A stretch of 64,000 bases of DNA from Prevotella sp. (GTDB lineage Bacteria; Bacteroidota; Bacteroidia; Bacteroidales; Bacteroidaceae): positions 62,001-126,000 of the forward strand of contig SUYI01000003.1 in assembly GCA_015060485.1 (NCBI GenBank), written 5' to 3'. Position 1 is the stretch's first letter; every line of letters begins with the position of its first letter. Made by a program: the position numbers and the translations under genes. The notes beneath the pieces were generated by a model. It searched no databases, was not told the DNA's origin, and saw only the letters and a program-made list of their open reading frames with translations. Positions 7,709 through 55,606 of the stretch are shown one piece after another.

Positions 7709-9034
7709 ATGAGTCAGTTCGACAAACCTACCCATCACAATATGCAACGCCGCATGGTTACGCATAACTACATGCTGCCGGGCATCTATCACATTACGAT
7801 TCATGTGGCAGAAAGTTTGGGGCAGCCATTAGGCCATGTAGAAGGCTCGCTGCAGATGCCTGACGATAGTCAAAACGGTCCACATGTGGCGCTTACTCCG
7901 GTAGGTAATATGGTACGTGAAGAACTACTTAACAGCATCACTGCCAACTATCGCATGATAACTGTCGATACATTTGTCATCATGCCAGACCATCTGCACG
8001 CACTCATAGACGTAACGGCACCCATTGTCAGCAAAAACGGCCGTCCCACTCATCTCGGGCAGGTCATTGCCGGCTTCAAGAAAGGCTGTAACCGCCGTTA
8101 TTGGGCAATGACGGGACAAGGCGTTCCGACGGGTGAACCGTCGAGCACCCGTATGCCATCAGGCGCCATGGTGTCTGGCGGTCCTTCTACGGTGTCTGGC
8201 GGTCCTTCCGTTTCTACGGTGCCTGGCGGTTCTTCTACGGTGTCTGGCGGTTCACCCGCCAGAAATGAAAAACGCGTCCCCTCCAGTGGCACCACCGGCC
8301 GCCCGCCGCTTTTTGCCTATGGTTATTGTGACGTGCAGCCAATTACCCCTGAACAGCTTGCCACCCAGCGCACTTATATCAAGGGCAACCCTCGCAGCCG
8401 CTTGCTTCGCAGCAGCCATCGCGCCACGCTGACAACCTGCCGCACGGGCCATATCACTGCTCTCACGCCCTCAGCCCTTCGCGGCTATCTACAGCGGGAA
8501 TGTCCGCCCAAGCACGCTACTATAGAAGCCCTTTCAGCCATAGAGTGCCGTCTGCTTCTTGCAGACGGAAAAGTTTCCCTTGATACCTACGGCAACCGCC
8601 AGCTGCTAGACAGTAGTCTGCTCCCTGTGGTCTGCCACCGCAAGGATGTGCAAAGCTTTACAGTACAGAAAACGCGGTGCATGGAAGAAGCAGCCCGTGG
8701 CGCAGTCCTCGTTAGTGCCTGCATCTCACCTCGCGAACGCGAGATTATCAACGAAAGTGTGAATCACGGTTTTCCCGTGGTTCTCATTGCCGACAACGGA
8801 TTTCCCGAGCGCTACCACCCGTCAACAGAACGTATAAACATGTGTGCTGAAGGGCGCCTGCTATTAGTTACCCCTTGGCAATACCAGTATCGTGGCAAGA
8901 ACGAACAGGTCACTGTTCCGTTCTGCAAGGCGATGAACTGTGTGGCTCAGGCCCTCTGCCGCACGAAAGATGACTGGTGGAAAGCTTTTCGTCCTCTTTT
9001 TTACTCCCTTATCTTTGCCCCCTTTTTTATATAA
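7709..9034 (+). CDS. REP-associated tyrosine transposase (RAYT, Y1_Tnp-like) fused to a putative SLOG/DprA-like C-terminal domain
   Basis: N-terminal HUH-type motif in VIMPDHLHALIDV and the RAYT-like TYIKGNPRSRLL motif. C-terminal ARGAVLVSACISPREREIINESVNHGFPVVLIADNGFPERYHPSTERINMCAEGRLLLVTPW resembles a Rossmannoid SLOG/DprA-like fold. Confidence 0.7.
   Translation: MSQFDKPTHHNMQRRMVTHNYMLPGIYHITIHVAESLGQPLGHVEGSLQMPDDSQNGPHVALTPVGNMVREELLNSITANYRMITVDTFVIMPDHLHALIDVTAPIVSKNGRPTHLGQVIAGFKKGCNRRYWAMTGQGVPTGEPSSTRMPSGAMVSGGPSTVSGGPSVSTVPGGSSTVSGGSPARNEKRVPSSGTTGRPPLFAYGYCDVQPITPEQLATQRTYIKGNPRSRLLRSSHRATLTTCRTGHITALTPSALRGYLQRECPPKHATIEALSAIECRLLLADGKVSLDTYGNRQLLDSSLLPVVCHRKDVQSFTVQKTRCMEEAARGAVLVSACISPREREIINESVNHGFPVVLIADNGFPERYHPSTERINMCAEGRLLLVTPWQYQYRGKNEQVTVPFCKAMNCVAQALCRTKDDWWKAFRPLFYSLIFAPFFI
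8170..8263 (+). repeat. In-frame tandem repeat of about 21 nt (GGTGTCTGGCGGTYCTTCTAC, 4 units, one with a 6-nt insertion) ending in a hairpin
   Basis: Units at 8170-8190, 8191-8217, 8218-8238 and 8239-8263. The last forms TCTGGCGG-TTCAC-CCGCCAGA. Confidence 0.9.
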
Positions 9035-9292: not shown

Positions 9293-10558
9293 ATGAATTT
9301 CGAATCACTGATAGGAAGCATTAATCAAGTGCAGGATGCACTTCAGGCGCAGGCCGCACATGCAGTTAATCTCTCACTGACTGCACGCAACTGGCTTGTG
9401 GGCTACTATATAGTGGAATTCGAACAACAGGGTGAAGATCGGGCGAAATACGGTGAGAACCTCCTGAACAATATTGCGAAAGAGTTGTCTCGCAAGGGAC
9501 TGGAAGCTCGCAGATTACGTGAGTATCGACAGTTCTATCGTGTCTATCCGCAAATAGGGAACAATGTGATAGATTATCTTAAAAAGAATGCTGTTGCAGG
9601 TCTGTCTATAAATGATTCACAGATTTGGCGGTTGCCGACCGCCAAATTGCAAGTTGCAGATAATCAGTCAAATACAATTCGGCAGACAGCGTCCGCCAAA
9701 TTACAAGAGCAAGGTTCACTACAAGAGGAAATTTGGCGGTTGCCGACCGCCAAATCTTCAGAGGAGCCTTGGCAGACCCCTGCTGATTGGTTGTTTAATA
9801 GGCTGTCCGCCACTCACCTCGTATTTCTCTCAAATATCAAAGAACCTCTAAAGCGTGCGTTCTATGAACAGGAAACCATTCGAGGTTGTTGGACGATAAA
9901 GGAATTGGACCGTCAGGTCTCTTCACTTTATTACGAGCGCATGGGGTTGTCGAAAGACAAGAAAGCGCTTCACCGTCTGACAGCAAAAGACAGCAGGCAG
10001 TTATCACCTCGTGAAATACTGCACAATCCTGTGACTATAGAGTTCTTAGGACTACAGCCTCAGGATGTATATACCGAGACCAAGTTGGAGACAGCCATCC
10101 TTAACCACTTGCAGCAGTTTTTGCTGGAGATGGGACGTGGCTTCTGCTTCGAGGCTCGTCAGAAGCGAATCCTGATAGATCAGGACTATTTCAAGGCTGA
10201 CCTCATCTTCTATCATCGCATCCTGAAGTGCCATGTTGTTATTGACCTGAAGATTGACCGGTTCCGTCACGAGTATGCATCACAGTTGAACCTCTATCTT
10301 AACTACTATAAGCATGAGGTGATGCAAGAAGATGATAATCCGCCAATTGGCCTGTTGCTTTGTACCGACTATGGAGAAACAACCGTTAGATATGCGACGG
10401 AAGGTCTCTCGCAGAATCTCTTCGTCAGTAAGTATCGCCTTCAGTTGCCTTCAGAAGAAGAATTCTATAAATATTTAGTTGAAAACATTTCTGAGCAAGA
10501 TTATATAGATTATAAAGAAGAACAAAAGAAGATAAATGCCACAAGATATGAGCAATAA
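9293..10558 (+). CDS. DUF1016/YhcG-family PDDEXK nuclease
   Basis: N-terminal ARNWLVGYYIVEFEQQGEDRAKYGENLL and C-terminal YFKADLIFYHRILKCHVVIDLKIDRF fit the YhcG family with D...DxK nuclease residues. Confidence 0.9.
   Translation: MNFESLIGSINQVQDALQAQAAHAVNLSLTARNWLVGYYIVEFEQQGEDRAKYGENLLNNIAKELSRKGLEARRLREYRQFYRVYPQIGNNVIDYLKKNAVAGLSINDSQIWRLPTAKLQVADNQSNTIRQTASAKLQEQGSLQEEIWRLPTAKSSEEPWQTPADWLFNRLSATHLVFLSNIKEPLKRAFYEQETIRGCWTIKELDRQVSSLYYERMGLSKDKKALHRLTAKDSRQLSPREILHNPVTIEFLGLQPQDVYTETKLETAILNHLQQFLLEMGRGFCFEARQKRILIDQDYFKADLIFYHRILKCHVVIDLKIDRFRHEYASQLNLYLNYYKHEVMQEDDNPPIGLLLCTDYGETTVRYATEGLSQNLFVSKYRLQLPSEEEFYKYLVENISEQDYIDYKEEQKKINATRYEQ
9623..9784 (+). repeat. Three in-frame 54-nt tandem units, each beginning with a 25-nt palindromic element
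   Basis: ATTTGGCGGT-TGCCG-ACCGCCAAAT at 9623-9647 and 9731-9755; degenerate ATTCGGCAGACAGCGTCCGCCAAAT at 9677-9701; spacing exactly 54 nt. Confidence 0.95.
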
Positions 10559-10605
10559 GATAATGACACGGAATATGGAAAGCTTGGAGAATTCAGGCCG
10601 AATTC
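10536..10605 (+). repeat. 70-bp direct repeat copy 2, overlapping the DUF1016 3' end and the next ORF start
   Basis: Near-identical to 9193-9262; two substitutions. Confidence 0.95.
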
Positions 10606-13600
10606 AAGGCGAATTCTCGCTGAATTCATGGCGAATTCACGCTGAATTCTCGGGCTTACGGCTCGCCCTTGACGACATTACGGCTCGTCGTCAACGAGAT
10701 TACGGCTCGTGCGCCACGACATTACGGCTCGTCGTTATCCTGCTCCTGATGATGGTTGTGGGAGTGAATGGGGTGAAGGCACAGGGTATCTATTATATTG
10801 CCAGTGAATACGATTCATATAATAACGAAAATACGCAATACAACATTAATGGTAATATTGCAAACCACTGCTATCTTGTTCCTGCAAAGGGAGAGGATCT
10901 AGACAACAAAGAGTTAGCATATTATAAGTATAGTGATTATGGCTTTGCACAACCATATATAACTACATTTCGAACCAACCAAGATAATAATTCTGTTTGG
11001 ATACTTAAGCATATAACAGGAGATACCTATCAAATCATTCATGCTTTGACGGGAAAATATATGGAATATGCTGTACCTGATGCAAACAAAAGTACAAGAA
11101 GAGTTGTTCACTTGGTTGAACTAACAGAAACTCAAGCATCAGCCAACAGCAATACTCGATTTGAGGTAACGACAAATAGTAGTGGAACAAATTTTGTGCC
11201 TAATGCTTTGACTAGTGCAGACAATAGATACTTAAATGTATGTACCCATAATTATGAACAGTATTATGGCCATTCTAGTAAAGACAACAGTGGAGGCCTT
11301 ATTGGTGTGTGGTCAGCATCGAATGGTCTCTCTCTATGGCATTTTGAAGATGCGACCCTTCCAGCTTCTTCTATTACCATCAGCGATGTCAACCCAGAGA
11401 ATAATAAAGTAACGGTAACGGTTCCAGGCTGGTTGGCTCCGGGTTACAACATACGCTATACTATTGGTGACGGCCCACAAGCTACCCCTACGGCAACAAC
11501 AACTACTTACATAGAAAACCAAAGTGGAAAGGATAATGAAATTTTAATAAACCAGGCCGGTACACTCAAGGTGGTGATTGAACGTTATGGCGTGGTGCTG
11601 ACAGAAGTTGCGGAAAAAACAGTAAGTCCAGTACCCTGTGCAACACCGGAGATTAGTTTCGACTATACTACTTCAAAAGTCACAATCACTTGTGCCACTA
11701 CGGGTGCTACTATCTATTATACTACAGATGGTTCCACTCCAACCACATCGAGTACCGAATACACAGCACCATTCGCTATTACCGCCATGACTACCGTGAA
11801 GGCGATAGCTACTTGTACCGACTTCCCTAACTCAGAAGTGGCGACTCAGACCATTAGCCTGGTGCCATCCCCATCAATCTTATTCAATACAAGCAATAAG
11901 GTTGAGATGGTGACGAATGTGGGGGGGGCATCTATCTATTACACCACTGACGGTTCGGAGCCTTCTGCTACCAATGGCACAAAATATACGGAACCCTTTG
12001 ACGTTGCAGACAATGTAACGACGATCAAAGCTGTCACCGTTACCTCCACAGACGCGAGCATCGTCACGACATTCACTCCTCCCGTGATACCAGGCTCTAC
12101 TCATATCCGACTGATTCAGAGCCAAGGCGACGAATGGACAACGGGGGATAATCAGGGATGTCATTACTATATGGTTCCCGGTAGCAGCGACGGAGTGAGT
12201 ACGACGAGCCTGCTTGGCCCCAGTATGCAATGGCATTGCTTGAGTGCAGGCGTGGAGGGTGACGTACAGTATTACTATATCGTCAATCAAAACGGGAAAT
12301 GGTTGTGCTATGATGGAACCAGCGTAAAAATGGCTTCCTTTGACAACACAAATGCCAATCAGTTTAAGTTCCAACTGACACCCTATCCCGCAACAGGCAC
12401 TCCGACAGACTATAACATCGTGCCTTATGGACTGACCACAGGCAATATGTATGTCACCAAGGACAATGCCACTTCAGCAGCCTTAGCTTTAGGCAGTACG
12501 AATAGTGACGCAAAGGCCCGTTGGAAGTTTATCAAGACGGACGCACTGAACAAGACCGCTCCCTTCTCGCTCTCCGATGAAAGCAAGAGCTTTTTCTATA
12601 AGATAGGCAGTAAGGGTAGTGATGGTTATTACATAGTGCCACCCACAGGTGAAGCAACAGCTGTCACCGCGTCGAACGAAACAACTGATGATGCAGGGAA
12701 AAACAAGAGCTGGTTCATAGAACTGGCAGAAAGCCCTACTACCGACGATTGGCTAACGTATTATTACATCAGAAATGCGGTGACGGGCGAATACCTGTAT
12801 TTCACCAAGGAGGCTATTGGGACAGAAGCCGCTTTCGAGATGCGTAGCACCGAGATACATAGTGCCGTAGAGGACGTTAGCGAGGAGAGTTGTTATCAAT
12901 TCACTTGGGCTCGGGGCACAACTACCGATGCCTATTATGTGATTCCTAAGAAGCTTGTCAATGAAAATCCTGACGAGGTCGGTTCTGTGAATTGGGAAAA
13001 CAGTGTGCTGAGCACAGCTTCAGCCAGAGGAACAGGCAGTAGTGCCTGGACCATTACCACGACGGATGCTTTCTGCTTGGATCCTGTAATATCAATGGAT
13101 GAAGATGGTGTTGTCACACTGACGTGTGCCACGAATGCTTCGGAGATTTATTATTGTTCCAACGGTGATGCTCCTGTGGTGCCCGGCGAGATTGGTACGT
13201 TGCCAGTGGATCCGACACGTCTCTATACCTCAGCGTTCTCGCTGGATCTGGATGCGGAGGCAATCAAGGTCTATGCGGCACTGAAAAATGACCATACTGC
13301 CATATCGAACTTAGTGACACAAACGTTAGCCCAATGTGAGACACCGACGGGTACATACTTAGGACCACAGGGCAGTTTGGCCATGGCGACAACAACGGCG
13401 GGTGCTGACATCTATTATACCATAGACAATACCGATCCGGCGTTGGTAGAGAGTACCAGCCATGCTGCAGAGCCTGAGGTGGTGTTCGAAACCAACAAGA
13501 GGTCGAAGGTCTTTGCGAGGGCAGCGAAGCACGGCATGAGAAAGTCGGAACCCTACCAGCTGGAGGTGGTGTTTATGCCTACCATCGAACTGAACGAGAG

Positions 13601-28746: not shown

Positions 28747-29637
28747 GTGATGAATAGGAACGACCGTAGGATAGCATTGGGAGCAGTGTGTGTCGGACTG
28801 CTGGCCTTGCTGGGCCTCTGGCTCGGCGGAGAGACAGCACCAGACACCACGAATGCCATTGCCCCCACCGACTCTACCCCTACTATCCCTAACCACCCTA
28901 CCTCCCCTAACAACCCTACCACCCCTACCACCCCTACCAACCCTACCAAAACTCCCTCTCCTTACTATACCGTCCCTTCGCACGCCGTCGAACGTTTCCC
29001 CTTCGACCCCAACACTGCTGACAGCACACAACTGCTGCGCCTGGGCCTGCAACCCTGGCAGGTAAGGAATATCTATAAATACCGTGCCCATGGCGGCATA
29101 TATCGCAAAAAGGAGGACTTCGCCCAACTCTACGGACTGACCGTCAAACAGTATCGCGAACTGGAACCCTATATCCGAATTTCCAAGGACTACCTGCCGG
29201 CGTCAACGCTGGTGGGTAACCGGGATCTCTATCCCGTTAAAATCGGCGAAAATGAACACATCGTGCTCAATACCGCTGATACGACGGAGTTGCAGCGAGT
29301 GCCTGGCATCGGACCGTACTACGCCAAAGAAATAGTGCGCCGCGGAAAGTGGCTGGGAGGCTATGTCAGCGTCGACCAGCTGGACGAGATAGAGAACTTC
29401 CCACAGGAGGCCAAGAAGTATTTCGTGATACAGGATGCCACGCCCAAGAAGCTGAACGTCAACAAGCTTGGTCTGCAGGAGTTGCGCAAGCATCCGTACA
29501 TCAACTATTACATGGCAAAGACCATCGTGGACTATCGCCGCTTGCACGGACCTATCAAGAGTCTGGAGGATTTGCACCTCTCGAAGGACTTCCCGCCGGA
29601 GGTCATCCGTCGCCTGTCACCATACGTGGAATATTAA
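28747..29637 (+). CDS. ComEA-like helix-hairpin-helix DNA-binding protein
   Basis: FDPNTADSTQLLRLGLQPWQVRNIYKYRAHGG, LNTADTTELQRVPGIGPYYAKEIV and LNVNKLGLQELRKHPYINYYMAKTIVDYR HhH modules. Confidence 0.85.
   Translation: MMNRNDRRIALGAVCVGLLALLGLWLGGETAPDTTNAIAPTDSTPTIPNHPTSPNNPTTPTTPTNPTKTPSPYYTVPSHAVERFPFDPNTADSTQLLRLGLQPWQVRNIYKYRAHGGIYRKKEDFAQLYGLTVKQYRELEPYIRISKDYLPASTLVGNRDLYPVKIGENEHIVLNTADTTELQRVPGIGPYYAKEIVRRGKWLGGYVSVDQLDEIENFPQEAKKYFVIQDATPKKLNVNKLGLQELRKHPYINYYMAKTIVDYRRLHGPIKSLEDLHLSKDFPPEVIRRLSPYVEY
28887..28949 (+). repeat. In-frame 9-nt tandem repeat (CCCTAMCMA-like, 7 units) encoding a Pro/Thr linker
   Basis: CCCTAACCA CCCTACCTC CCCTAACAA CCCTACCAC CCCTACCAC CCCTACCAA CCCTACCAA. 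Confidence 0.9.
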
Positions 29638-29644
29638 AAGGGGA

Positions 29645-29721
29645 CTAAAGGAACACCAAAGGAGGTCTAAAGGAGCACCAAAGGAGGCCTAAAGGAGGTC
29701 TAAAGGAGCACTAAAGGAAGA
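29645..29721 (+). repeat. 11-nt tandem repeat, 7 units, between the comEA-like gene and dgt
   Basis: CTAAAGGAACA CCAAAGGAGGT CTAAAGGAGCA CCAAAGGAGGC CTAAAGGAGGT CTAAAGGAGCA CTAAAGGAAGA. Confidence 0.95.
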
Positions 29722-51985: not shown

Positions 51986-54900
51986 TTAATGGGCAATATA
52001 TTTTGATAACAGCTGCTCGCCTTCTGCTACGCTAATACCTCGTCGCTGGCAATAGTCTGTCAGTTGCTCCTCGTCAATGCGTCCCACAGAGAAATAGCGA
52101 GCCTCAGGGTGACAGATGAAGAGTCCGCAAATGGCCGTCGAGGGCTGTATGGAGTAGTGGTCAGTCAGCGTCACGTTCAGCTGGCGTTCAGCGTCCAGCA
52201 GGTCGAACACGATGCGCTTCAGCGAGTGGTCCGGACAGGTGGCGTAGCCGAAGGCGACGCGGAGCGGAGCCGTTCGGTGCGTCGCGACACTGTCGCGACA
52301 TACTGGACTTTGCGTGAGCCATTCTGCGCCGGCTTCTGTCAGTCGGGCACAGATGGCGTGGCTCATCAGTCGCTCAGCCTCGTCAGAAGGTTGCTGCTTG
52401 GGGCGGGCCACGATGGTAAAGAGGCCCAACGGGGTAGGGTGTTGTTCGTCGTAGTAGTCCGCTAAACACAGGTAGTGTCCTGTGGCGCTCTGACTGCGCA
52501 GCATGGGGAGAATGGTGGTGTTTTTCTCGCTGGCAGAACCAGCGAGCACATGATGGCCATCGGGCGAAGAACCAGCAATCACGATGTCGTTGCCGCGACG
52601 CTTGGCAGGCACGAAACGCAGCAGTGTCTGCACTTCAATCGTACCTTGCTCGATGGCGTGTTGCAGGTATTCCTTACCTTCGTTCAGCGTACGCTCTGCC
52701 TCTGGGTTTACCAGCAGCTGTTGCAGCGTTTCGCCTTTGAAACCCCAGAACAACAGGAACATGCGCCAGTCAATGAGCGGCAAAAGGTCAGCTACGTCAA
52801 CGGGTCCGGAATATTCGGACATTCCAGACAATCCGCTCAATTTGTGAAATTCGTGGTCGTTCAATACTGGTGCCTTGTGGTTGGCTTCTGCATAAGGTGT
52901 TAGTGGGGCGTGGTGCTCTTCGTAGGCATCACGCAGCGTCTGCTGTTCCGCCTTGATTTGTGCGATGGTCGCTGCAGCATCCATCTGAAGGTGTTTGGCC
53001 AGCAGCGACGTCTGCGAGGCATCGCCGCCATGCACCACACAGCCGTCGTACAACGGTGCCAGCTTGACGGCCGTATGCACTGGCGACGTGGTAGCACCAC
53101 CCACCACGATAGGCACCTGCAGTCCCTCTTTCTGAAACAGCTGGCACAGCAGTTCCATCTCCTTCAGCGACGGGGTGATGAGTCCGCTGATGCCTACCAT
53201 ACAGGGCTTCCGCTTCTTGGTTTCTTCCAGAATCGTCTCGCCAGGCACCATCACGCCTAGGTCTACGACGTCAAAGCCGTTACAGCCCAGCACGATGCCT
53301 ACGATGTTCTTGCCGATGTCGTGTACGTCGCCATTGGCGGTGGCCAGCACCACACATGGGCGTTCCGACTTTTGTACTCCCTGTTCCTCGTCGATGTACG
53401 GCTGCAGCAGGGCCACGGCATCCTTCATCACCTTGGCCGATTTCACCACCTGTGGCAGAAACATCTTGCCTTCGCCAAACAGCTGGCCGATGTGCTCCAT
53501 GGCCTGCATCAGTGGTTGTTCTATCACGTCGATGGGGCGTCCGTACTTTGCCAGCGCCTCAGGGATGTCGTCAACCAGATGGCTGTTGTCGCCTTTGCTC
53601 AGGGCATGCAGCAGCCGTTCTTCTATTGTCTTGTTGCGCCACGAGTCGGCAGTCGGGGCGGCTGTCGGGTGCTCGCTGGCAGAACCAGCGAGAACAGTGG
53701 CTGCCAGCGTAATCAGGCGCTCGGTGGCCTCGTCGTCCTTGTTCAGGATGACGTCTTCCACCGCCTTCAGCAGCGTGGGCTCTATGTCGTCGTACACCTG
53801 CAGCATGCCAGGATTCACGATGGCCATGTCCAGTCCTTCGCGTATAGCATGATAAAGGAATACCGAGTGCATGGCCTCGCGCACCTTGTTGTTGCCTCGG
53901 AAACTGAACGACAGGTTGCTCACACCTCCGCTGGTCTTCGCCAGTGGCAGGTGCTGTTTAATCCAACCTACGGCGCGGATAAAGTCCACACCGTATGTCT
54001 GGTGTTCCTTCAGTCCTGTTCCTACCGACAGGATGTTCACGTCGAAAATAATATCTTGTGGTAGGAAACCGATGTCAGTCAGCAACCCGTAGGCCCGTTC
54101 GGCAATGGCAATCTTGCGCTCATAGGTCGTGGCCTGTCCCTCCTCGTCGAAGGCCATCACCACCACGGCCGCACCCAGTCGGCGCAGTTCGCGGGCCTTG
54201 CTGAGAAAGTCCGCTTCACCATTCTTCAGACTGATGGAATTCACGATACACTTACCCTGTGCATTCTTCAGTCCTGCCAATACCGTCGCCCAATCCGACG
54301 AGTCAATCATCAGCACGGCACGGCTCACGCCAGGGTCGTTGGCCACGTATCGGCAGAAGGTCTGCATCTCCTGTTGGCTGTCCAGCATGGCATCGTCCAT
54401 GTTGATGTCGATAATATGTGCACCGCCCTCTATCTGGTTGCGCGCCACACTCAGCGCCTCGTCGTATTTCTTTTCGGCTATCAGTCGGGCAAACTTTCGC
54501 GAACCGGCCACATTGGTGCGCTCACCCACATTGGTGAAATTGCGTGTCTCTTTGTCTACCAGCAACGGTTCCAGTCCCGACAGCCACATGCGCTTGTCGG
54601 CAGCAGGCATCTGTCTGGGCTTTAAACCCTGCAGGGCCTCGCTGATGGCGCGGATGTGTTCCTCATCGGTTCCACAGCAGCCTCCCGCGATGTTCAGCAG
54701 ACCGTCCTCCGCCATCTGGTGCAGGTGACTGGCCGTATAGGAGGGCAGCTCGTCGTATTCACCCATTTCGTTGGGCAGTCCGGCATTGGGGTAGAGCGAC
54801 AGGTAGACGGGTATTCTGTCCGACAATTGCTCGACGAACGTCCGCAGGTCTGTCACGCCAAACGAACAATTCAGTCCGAAGCTCAACAGGTAAGGATAGT

Positions 54901-55606
54901 GGCTGATGCTGATGTAGAAAGCCTCCAGCGTCTGACCCGTCAGCGTGCGTCCGCTGCGGTCGTTGATGGTTGCCGACACCATCAGGGGCATCGCTGTGCC
55001 GCGACGTTCGTTGATGCGTTCGATGGCGTAGATGGCCGCCTTGGCGTTCAGCGCGTCAAAGCAGGTCTCCAACAGCAGCAGGTCCACACCCCCCGCTATC
55101 AGTGCCTCGGCCTGTTCCTCGTAGGCTGCCGCCATCTCGTCGAAGGCGATGCTCCGGCTGCCAGGGTCGTTCATGTCCGAGGCCAGTGAGAGCGATTTCG
55201 AGGTGGGTCCCATCGAACCTGCTACCCAGATGCGATGTCTGATGTCTGATGACTGATGGCTGAAGGCGTCTGCGGCTTGGCGGGCTATGCGGGCACCGGC
55301 CAGCGCCATCTCGCGAGCCTGTTCCTCGCAGCCGTACTCCTTCTGACTGATGCGGTTTGCCGAGAACGTGTTCGTTGTGATGATGTCCGCACCAGCCCCG
55401 ATATATTCCTCGTGAATCTGTCGGATTACCTCCGGAGCCGTCAGACACAGCACGTCGTTATTGCCCATCAGCGACACGGGCCACGCCTTCAGAGCCCCTT
55501 GGTGGTAGCTCTCTGCCGTTAGTCCCAGTGACTGAATCTTCGTGCCCATGGCACCGTCCAGAATCAGAATCCGTTCTCGTAAACTCGTTTCAATATTCAT
55601 TGACAT
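51986..55606 (-). CDS. metH: Cobalamin-dependent methionine synthase
   Basis: ILDGAMGTKIQ; GGCCGTDEEHI; VGERTNVAGSRKF; GDVHDIGKNIVGIVLGCNGFDVVDLGVMVP. Confidence 0.96.
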   Translation of the reverse strand: MSMNIETSLRERILILDGAMGTKIQSLGLTAESYHQGALKAWPVSLMGNNDVLCLTAPEVIRQIHEEYIGAGADIITTNTFSANRISQKEYGCEEQAREMALAGARIARQAADAFSHQSSDIRHRIWVAGSMGPTSKSLSLASDMNDPGSRSIAFDEMAAAYEEQAEALIAGGVDLLLLETCFDALNAKAAIYAIERINERRGTAMPLMVSATINDRSGRTLTGQTLEAFYISISHYPYLLSFGLNCSFGVTDLRTFVEQLSDRIPVYLSLYPNAGLPNEMGEYDELPSYTASHLHQMAEDGLLNIAGGCCGTDEEHIRAISEALQGLKPRQMPAADKRMWLSGLEPLLVDKETRNFTNVGERTNVAGSRKFARLIAEKKYDEALSVARNQIEGGAHIIDINMDDAMLDSQQEMQTFCRYVANDPGVSRAVLMIDSSDWATVLAGLKNAQGKCIVNSISLKNGEADFLSKARELRRLGAAVVVMAFDEEGQATTYERKIAIAERAYGLLTDIGFLPQDIIFDVNILSVGTGLKEHQTYGVDFIRAVGWIKQHLPLAKTSGGVSNLSFSFRGNNKVREAMHSVFLYHAIREGLDMAIVNPGMLQVYDDIEPTLLKAVEDVILNKDDEATERLITLAATVLAGSASEHPTAAPTADSWRNKTIEERLLHALSKGDNSHLVDDIPEALAKYGRPIDVIEQPLMQAMEHIGQLFGEGKMFLPQVVKSAKVMKDAVALLQPYIDEEQGVQKSERPCVVLATANGDVHDIGKNIVGIVLGCNGFDVVDLGVMVPGETILEETKKRKPCMVGISGLITPSLKEMELLCQLFQKEGLQVPIVVGGATTSPVHTAVKLAPLYDGCVVHGGDASQTSLLAKHLQMDAAATIAQIKAEQQTLRDAYEEHHAPLTPYAEANHKAPVLNDHEFHKLSGLSGMSEYSGPVDVADLLPLIDWRMFLLFWGFKGETLQQLLVNPEAERTLNEGKEYLQHAIEQGTIEVQTLLRFVPAKRRGNDIVIAGSSPDGHHVLAGSASEKNTTILPMLRSQSATGHYLCLADYYDEQHPTPLGLFTIVARPKQQPSDEAERLMSHAICARLTEAGAEWLTQSPVCRDSVATHRTAPLRVAFGYATCPDHSLKRIVFDLLDAERQLNVTLTDHYSIQPSTAICGLFICHPEARYFSVGRIDEEQLTDYCQRRGISVAEGEQLLSKYIAH
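52281..52299. repeat. Inverted repeat inside metH
   Basis: GTCGCGACA-C-TGTCGCGAC, encoding CRDSVA on the minus strand. Confidence 0.85.
52526..52546. repeat. 21-nt hairpin element in metH, copy A
   Basis: CTCGCTGG-CAGAA-CCAGCGAG, encoding LAGSASE on the minus strand. Confidence 0.95.
53672..53692. repeat. 21-nt hairpin element in metH, copy B, identical to copy A
   Basis: CTCGCTGG-CAGAA-CCAGCGAG, encoding LAGSASE on the minus strand. Confidence 0.95.
55234..55268. repeat. 7-nt tandem repeat inside metH
   Basis: GATGTCT GATGTCT GATGACT GATGGCT GAAGGCG; encodes the FSHQSSDIRH segment on the minus strand. Confidence 0.9.

Follow-up and report, generated by a model that had tools for sequence, protein, structure and literature searches.

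Tiny hairpin insertions in metH and other genes of ruminant-gut Prevotella

The metH gene and its palindromes

The window, the whole stretch of 64,000 nucleotides of a Prevotella sp. genome that was analysed, carries on its minus strand at 51986-55606 a metH gene, recognised from its ORF and by Pfam, which encodes a cobalamin-dependent methionine synthase of 1206 aa with the domains S-methyl_trans, Pterin_bind, B12-binding_2, B12-binding and Met_synt_B12 and hosts three palindromes. A preliminary description made from the sequence alone had reported identical 21-mers at 52526 and 53672, encoding LAGSASE in frame, and both were located on the minus strand, at 53672-53692 (copy 1) and 52526-52546 (copy 2), as CTCGCTGGCAGAACCAGCGAG with 0 mismatches; the metH reading at the two sites is HHVLAGSASEKNTT and ATVLAGSASEHPTA. 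On the metH strand copy 1 has the form ACTGTT-CTCGCTGG-TTCTG-CCAGCGAG and copy 2 the form CATGTG-CTCGCTGG-TTCTG-CCAGCGAG, each giving the peptide VLAGSASE, and a covariance model matched them at 53671-53696 (E 4.1e-5) and 52525-52550 (E 8.9e-7), respectively. Two matches to the 21-mer occurred in 0/100 dinucleotide shuffles of the window. The predicted folding energies of the two copies were -16.2 and -15.7 kcal/mol (z -3.7 and -4.6), and a search of the metH region against Rfam matched no known RNA family. The inverted repeat reported at 52281 as encoding CRDSVA was likewise found, as GTCGCGACA-C-TGTCGCGAC at 52281-52299, and by pattern match this third palindrome extends over 52280-52300 of the minus strand (TGTCGCGACAGTGTCGCGACG on the metH strand, peptide CRDSVAT) and is of the type TGTYGCGA-N5-TCGCRACA.

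Residue 638, at copy 1, falls in the linker between the Pfam matches Pterin_bind (361-598) and B12-binding_2 (662-734), while residue 1020, at copy 2, and the CRDSVAT site lie within the activation-domain match (938-1190), where the lengths of orthologs vary. Pfam boundaries and ortholog length differences thus agree with the earlier proposal that the palindromes occupy interdomain linkers or loops. In MetH they probably amount to added spacer residues and longer surface loops, and a role for the enzyme is unlikely. Most of the congeners sampled match this MetH up to a point near residue 915, and their C-terminal activation domain is apparently missing.

Another metH loop contains, on the minus strand at 55234-55263, a heptanucleotide tandem repeat, (ATCAGAC)n on the metH strand (TRF period 7, 4.3 copies; peptide HQSSDIRH), which varies between orthologs and represents a different repeat class at the same kind of site as the hairpins. 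In this genus metH loops and linkers (the window, L018, L020, L021, L023, L025 and L026) hold species-specific tandem repeats with units of 7 bp (STLNSQL, SPLTSHL, RDESLEL and HQTSDIR among the peptides) and 9 bp (ESYESY, EDTEDT), at sites homologous to the hairpin sites. In another gene for a protein with a homocysteine-methyltransferase domain (L063:153, in G000 C9, about 140 kb), the homologous counterpart of the metH heptamer loop is occupied by a hairpin element (QCADEFSSS). Tandem repeats with periods of 11, 22 and 33 bp occupy 10589-10733 and 29637-29719 of the window.

Architecture, abundance and pairing of the hairpin family

The metH palindromes belong to a large family of tiny hairpin insertions found in many ruminant-gut Prevotella. 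Aligned hairpins with 8-bp arms and a 5-nt loop share a tag and the loop while their stems vary, and LAGSASE therefore belongs to a family whose defining traits are tag, loop and pairing. The unit of about 27 bp comprises an unpaired 5' tag with the consensus A-C/G-T/G-G-T-G, an 8-bp stem whose sequence is largely free and whose inner end is usually GG/CC, a 5-nt loop with the consensus TTYNG, in most copies TTCTG or TTTTG, and a second arm that complements the first exactly; an A usually follows on the 3' side. A scan for perfect hairpins in 464 kb of this genome gave 45 stems of at least 8 bp with a loop of 5 nt against 9.7 expected, with little or no excess at other loop lengths, and 30 perfect hairpins with a TTNNN loop against 0 in a Markov control. 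A chance origin was rejected on the basis of the shuffles, the geometry excess, the Markov control and the free-pair test described below.

The exact 21-mer was absent from the rest of the 3.94-Mb genome and, with its two metH copies only, was rejected as a genome repeat. The preliminary description had taken its identity as evidence for mobility, a use that does not hold, as the 21-mer is confined to metH and it is the architecture that recurs, with other stems. It had also named the finding of the 21-mer nowhere else as grounds for abandoning the idea of insertion; the 21-mer is indeed found nowhere else, yet the architecture recurs, and because stems vary freely this was the wrong test.

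Two further copies of the main family are present on the plus strand of the window within one ORF of 442 aa, namely ACGGTG-TCTGGCGG-TTCAC-CCGCCAGA at 8243-8263 (covariance-model match 8239-8264, E 4.9e-5) and the weaker AGTGTG-AATCACGG-TTTTC-CCGTGGTT at 8758-8783 (E 0.015). A 21-bp tandem repeat at 8170-8253, GGTGTCTGGCGGTTCTTCTAC, looks like a repeated tag, left arm and loop, with the full hairpin at its end. A 422-aa ORF contains identical 25-bp hairpins, ATTTGGCGGT-TGCCG-ACCGCCAAAT, at 9623-9647 and 9731-9755, 108 bp apart, which are of the main family's size class and have a different loop.

The stretches sampled amounted to 864 kb for this genome and about 1 Mb for its sister G370. In the former the covariance model detected 35 elements at E<0.01, from which a load of about 160 per genome was extrapolated. 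Among 250 congeners 106 had at least one match and 31 had ten or more, with none or few in the others; about 30 candidates were scored per genome, and the high counts are lower bounds. The distribution among congeners is patchy, and perfect-stem copies occur in genera g10 and g17 of the family too. The literature searched, which consisted of open-licence papers, held no description of this family among in-frame palindromes of Prevotella or Bacteroidetes.

Pairing was assessed with the pattern TGTGN6GGTTYTGCCN6V, in which tag, loop and part of the stem are fixed and six pairs are left free, so that matches are chosen regardless of their pairing. The 28 matches in this genome comprised 26 different 6-mers, and at least five of the six free pairs were complementary in 26/28 matches; the paired fraction of the free pairs was 0.905, against 0.415 with shuffled partners (maximum 0.583), and the reversed pattern gave 0-1 matches per genome. 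A scan of 85,462 species with three free outer pairs found all three complementary at 59 of 80 loci, where about 1.25 were expected. All 59 were located in gut-type Bacteroidales MAGs, mostly of ruminant-gut Prevotella, and none of the loci from other phyla was fully complementary. The arms covary, the pair at stem position 1 being CG in 17, GC in 17 and UA in 9 (n=45). Covariation figures from alignment A1 are descriptive only, because A1 is partly made of elements picked for pairing, and the selection-free test is the pattern with six free pairs. With synonymous codons drawn at this genome's usage, the probability of full pairing, given the peptide, is at most about 0.012 for each sense phase-0 element, and the encoded peptides therefore cannot account for the pairing.

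The third metH palindrome is a member of a 21-bp sister subfamily, in which the stem is constant and the loop varies. TGTYGCGA-N5-TCGCRACA has, within 1 mismatch, 12 copies in this genome and 22 in G368, those of G368 being mostly identical (TGTTGCGACTCAGTCGCAACA), and its reversed control gave 0 in every genome scanned; an 8-3-8 hairpin alone is not rare, with 18 stems of at least 8 bp and a 3-nt loop seen against 9.7 expected in 464 kb. The peptides at the sites that were read include VCRDSVAT, VCCDDIAT, SRDTIAT and VATQSQQ. Relative to G378, L018 and other orthologs the metH copy is a lineage-specific insertion, which G370 shares in the altered form TGTCGCGAT-GGT-ATCGCAACA.

Empty sites, orientation and local copies

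Presence and absence in orthologs demonstrate the insertion of whole units. In an alignment of MetH homologs, the check proposed in the preliminary description, site 2 (52526) is filled in this genome and in G370, where the loop is TTTAG instead of TTCTG, and is empty in ten other orthologs; empty sites were also found in orthologs of two other genes, and the claim that the palindromes were inserted in frame as dispersed elements was borne out. At metH site 1 (53672) the stem is retained with altered sequence in four orthologs (CCCGCTGG/CCGGCGGG, CACGATGG/CCATCGGG, CCCGCAGG/CCAGCGGG and CTTGATGG/CCGTCGAG), each having one or two wobble or mismatched pairs.

In a gene of 1430 aa with five elements, one element is a 45-bp insert in this species with respect to nine empty orthologs. 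At another of its sites a 24-bp hairpin insertion occurs in G370 only and an antisense hairpin with its own tag in G378 only, and at a further one the arms are CTTGCTGG/CCAGCAAG in G330 and CTTGGCGG/CCGCCAAG in this genome. A third gene has a linker with stacked hairpins in this genome and G370, and partly in G330, and a short linker in the other orthologs; in its first hairpin three adjacent pairs show compensated differences between this genome and G370, and the loop has changed as well. Several adjacent pairs have changed at once in some stems at shared sites, for which template switching alone could be sufficient. The hairpins at L055 19024 and L096 19427 differ between this genome and G370 with net length unchanged and look more like local rewriting than insertion.

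Almost all copies reside in genes. Model matches comprised 33 sense, 5 antisense and 1 intergenic copies, 38/39 being in ORFs, and the sense bias among the 38 genic copies is significant (p = 4e-6). The independent set of 59 loci gave a similar picture, with 47 sense, 7 antisense and 5 intergenic (54/59 in ORFs). Of the 33 sense copies 27 are in codon phase 0, in which the peptide follows the pattern [ST]Vxx-G-[SF]-A-xx with small or turn-forming residues. As phase 0 yields flexible peptides, selection on the protein probably accounts for some of the bias in orientation and phase. Copies in all three sense phases, in antisense and in intergenic positions all occur.

Copies with the same stem form local clusters, as with CTCGCTGG twice in metH, CGGGGCGG three times in one gene and GTCAACGG four times in one region of G491, and neighbouring copies, viewed with regard to the inverted doublets of REP/REPIN elements, are mostly in the same orientation, as judged from the copies seen rather than from a systematic count. 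The excess of identical stems over that expected from composition was significant in G491 (13 pairs, 4.1 expected, p 0.003) and not in this genome (2 against 1.2). In several Prevotella MAGs (loci L164, L169, L184 and L231) the same hairpin, CTGGACGG-TTYTG-CCGTCCAG followed by a short run of T, closely precedes a gene starting MKHIIILGDGMAD; this arrangement is conserved across species and may reflect recruitment of the hairpin as a terminator or leader.

Origin of the hairpins and comparison with known systems

The palindromes are likely to be copies of a dispersed mobile hairpin, miniature and REP-like, that is tolerated in loops and linkers and whose stems are kept paired. Copies insert into genes and persist where the gained codons land in loops or linkers, and such persistence would explain much of the in-frame, phase-0 excess. 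Clean empty sites in orthologs show that new copies arise as whole units, and in several genes they lie close to a copy of identical stem. Conservation is confined to the tag, the loop and the pairing, from which we infer a structure-specific activity that moves or copies the elements by acting on a folded single strand of DNA or RNA; the complementarity of the arms may be kept by template-switch correction, by the immobility of unpaired copies, or by both. A further possibility, put forward tentatively and rather doubtful, is that the identity of the element resides in its fold, with a constant tag and loop and a free stem that can be rewritten, and that copying, which would work on folded transcripts or single strands and favour the same gene and the sense orientation, adds linker modules of seven codons.

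Hairpins could instead be made and maintained site by site with no mobile element, by short-range template switching in replication that copies arm onto arm, a process known to make perfect stems and compensatory changes (PMC8794818). The equal-length changes at L096 19427 and L055 19024, in which one arm only is like the sister sequence, fit this explanation, as do the three adjacent compensated pairs with the loop change in the third gene and the left arm CTCGCTG of metH site 2, which resembles CTCGC(T/C)GA at the empty site of relatives. It leaves unexplained, however, a tag and loop shared by many unrelated loci and a size fixed at 8-5-8, no local source is evident for the 45-bp insert, and occurrence is patchy between congeners; as an origin of the hairpins it is unlikely, and as a maintenance process template switching may well operate. 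A functional mRNA hairpin under selection at every position, such as one that binds a protein or makes translation pause, would agree with the covariation and with the sense bias, and both metH copies fold stably and some sites are kept in several species. Close orthologs nevertheless do without the hairpin at the same site, the host genes are unrelated and hold up to five copies in one, and metH gave no Rfam match, so that this explanation appears quite improbable.

Mobilisation by a RAYT, the Y1 tyrosine transposase of REP/REPIN elements, would be in line with the RAYT-type hairpin geometry named in the preliminary description, and small hairpins that carry a tag and number hundreds of copies are REP-like (PMC3733652, PMC3116915). 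The presence of Y1_Tnp (PF01797) does not track the elements, however, as G110 and G419 carry them with no Y1_Tnp match and the element-poor G412 has three; no tagged element lies in the 8 kb (L285) around the best Y1_Tnp match of this genome, and the elements are almost all intragenic. A RAYT link is accordingly very unlikely. Convergence at the protein level, the palindrome being a by-product of codon choice for a favoured linker peptide, would agree with the phase-0 bias and the small or turn-forming residues; it was rejected by the synonymous-codon test, conflicts with the copies in other sense phases, antisense and intergenic positions, and is scarcely credible.

As copies of a dispersed mobile hairpin, the palindromes point to a process, common across gut Prevotella, by which short and structurally constrained inserts are written in frame into ordinary housekeeping proteins. 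The family would be a source of protein linker evolution, a natural test bed for the origin and upkeep of perfect hairpins, and a target in the search for a structure-specific mobilising activity.

Hairpins generated by template switching have perfect, co-evolving arms (PMC8794818), as have the coding palindromes of Nematomorpha mitochondria (PMC6649704); unlike the Prevotella elements, neither shows a common tag and loop or a constant size, and neither is described as dispersed inserts. REP/REPIN elements with RAYT (PMC3116915) are also miniature hairpins in many dispersed copies, whereas the Prevotella elements are not associated with RAYT, are not extragenic, do not have a conserved stem and carry the tag A-C/G-T/G-G-T-G instead of GTAG at one end.

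The nearest known kind are the CGTC-tagged REPs, with an unpaired tag, a stem of 8-9 bp, a loop of 4-5 nt and complementary stem variation; they have no associated transposase, are mostly intergenic with some intragenic copies, and Bacteroidetes are among their reported hosts (Di Nocera et al. 2013, PMC3733652). Their tag is CGTC, TGTC or CCTC, the first two stem pairs are A-T and a CCA tail follows (PMC3733652). The Prevotella elements share the stem and loop size (8 and 5), but their tag is TGTG-like, they have neither the A-T pairs nor a CCA downstream flank, and their copies are almost all intragenic and sense with a nearly free stem.

Rickettsia palindromic elements lie within protein genes without abolishing their function (PMC6649704), and the CGTC repeats of Rickettsia conorii have been equated with RPE-4 and RPE-6 (PMC3733652). 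In-frame insertion in protein-coding genes is common to them and the Prevotella elements. Rickettsia palindromic elements are roughly 100-150 bp long, sequence-conserved repeats. The Prevotella units are of 21-27 bp with a variable stem, and the likeness to Rickettsia drawn in the preliminary description is an analogy only, since size and sequence conservation differ. The small dispersed repeats of Nostoc, said to have been described by Elhai et al. in 2008, are reportedly hairpin repeats of 21-27 nt; they are cyanobacterial, and their likeness to the Prevotella elements is one of size and hairpin form. We call the Prevotella family REP-like miniature hairpins, unusual in their free stems and in their genic, sense, in-frame habit.
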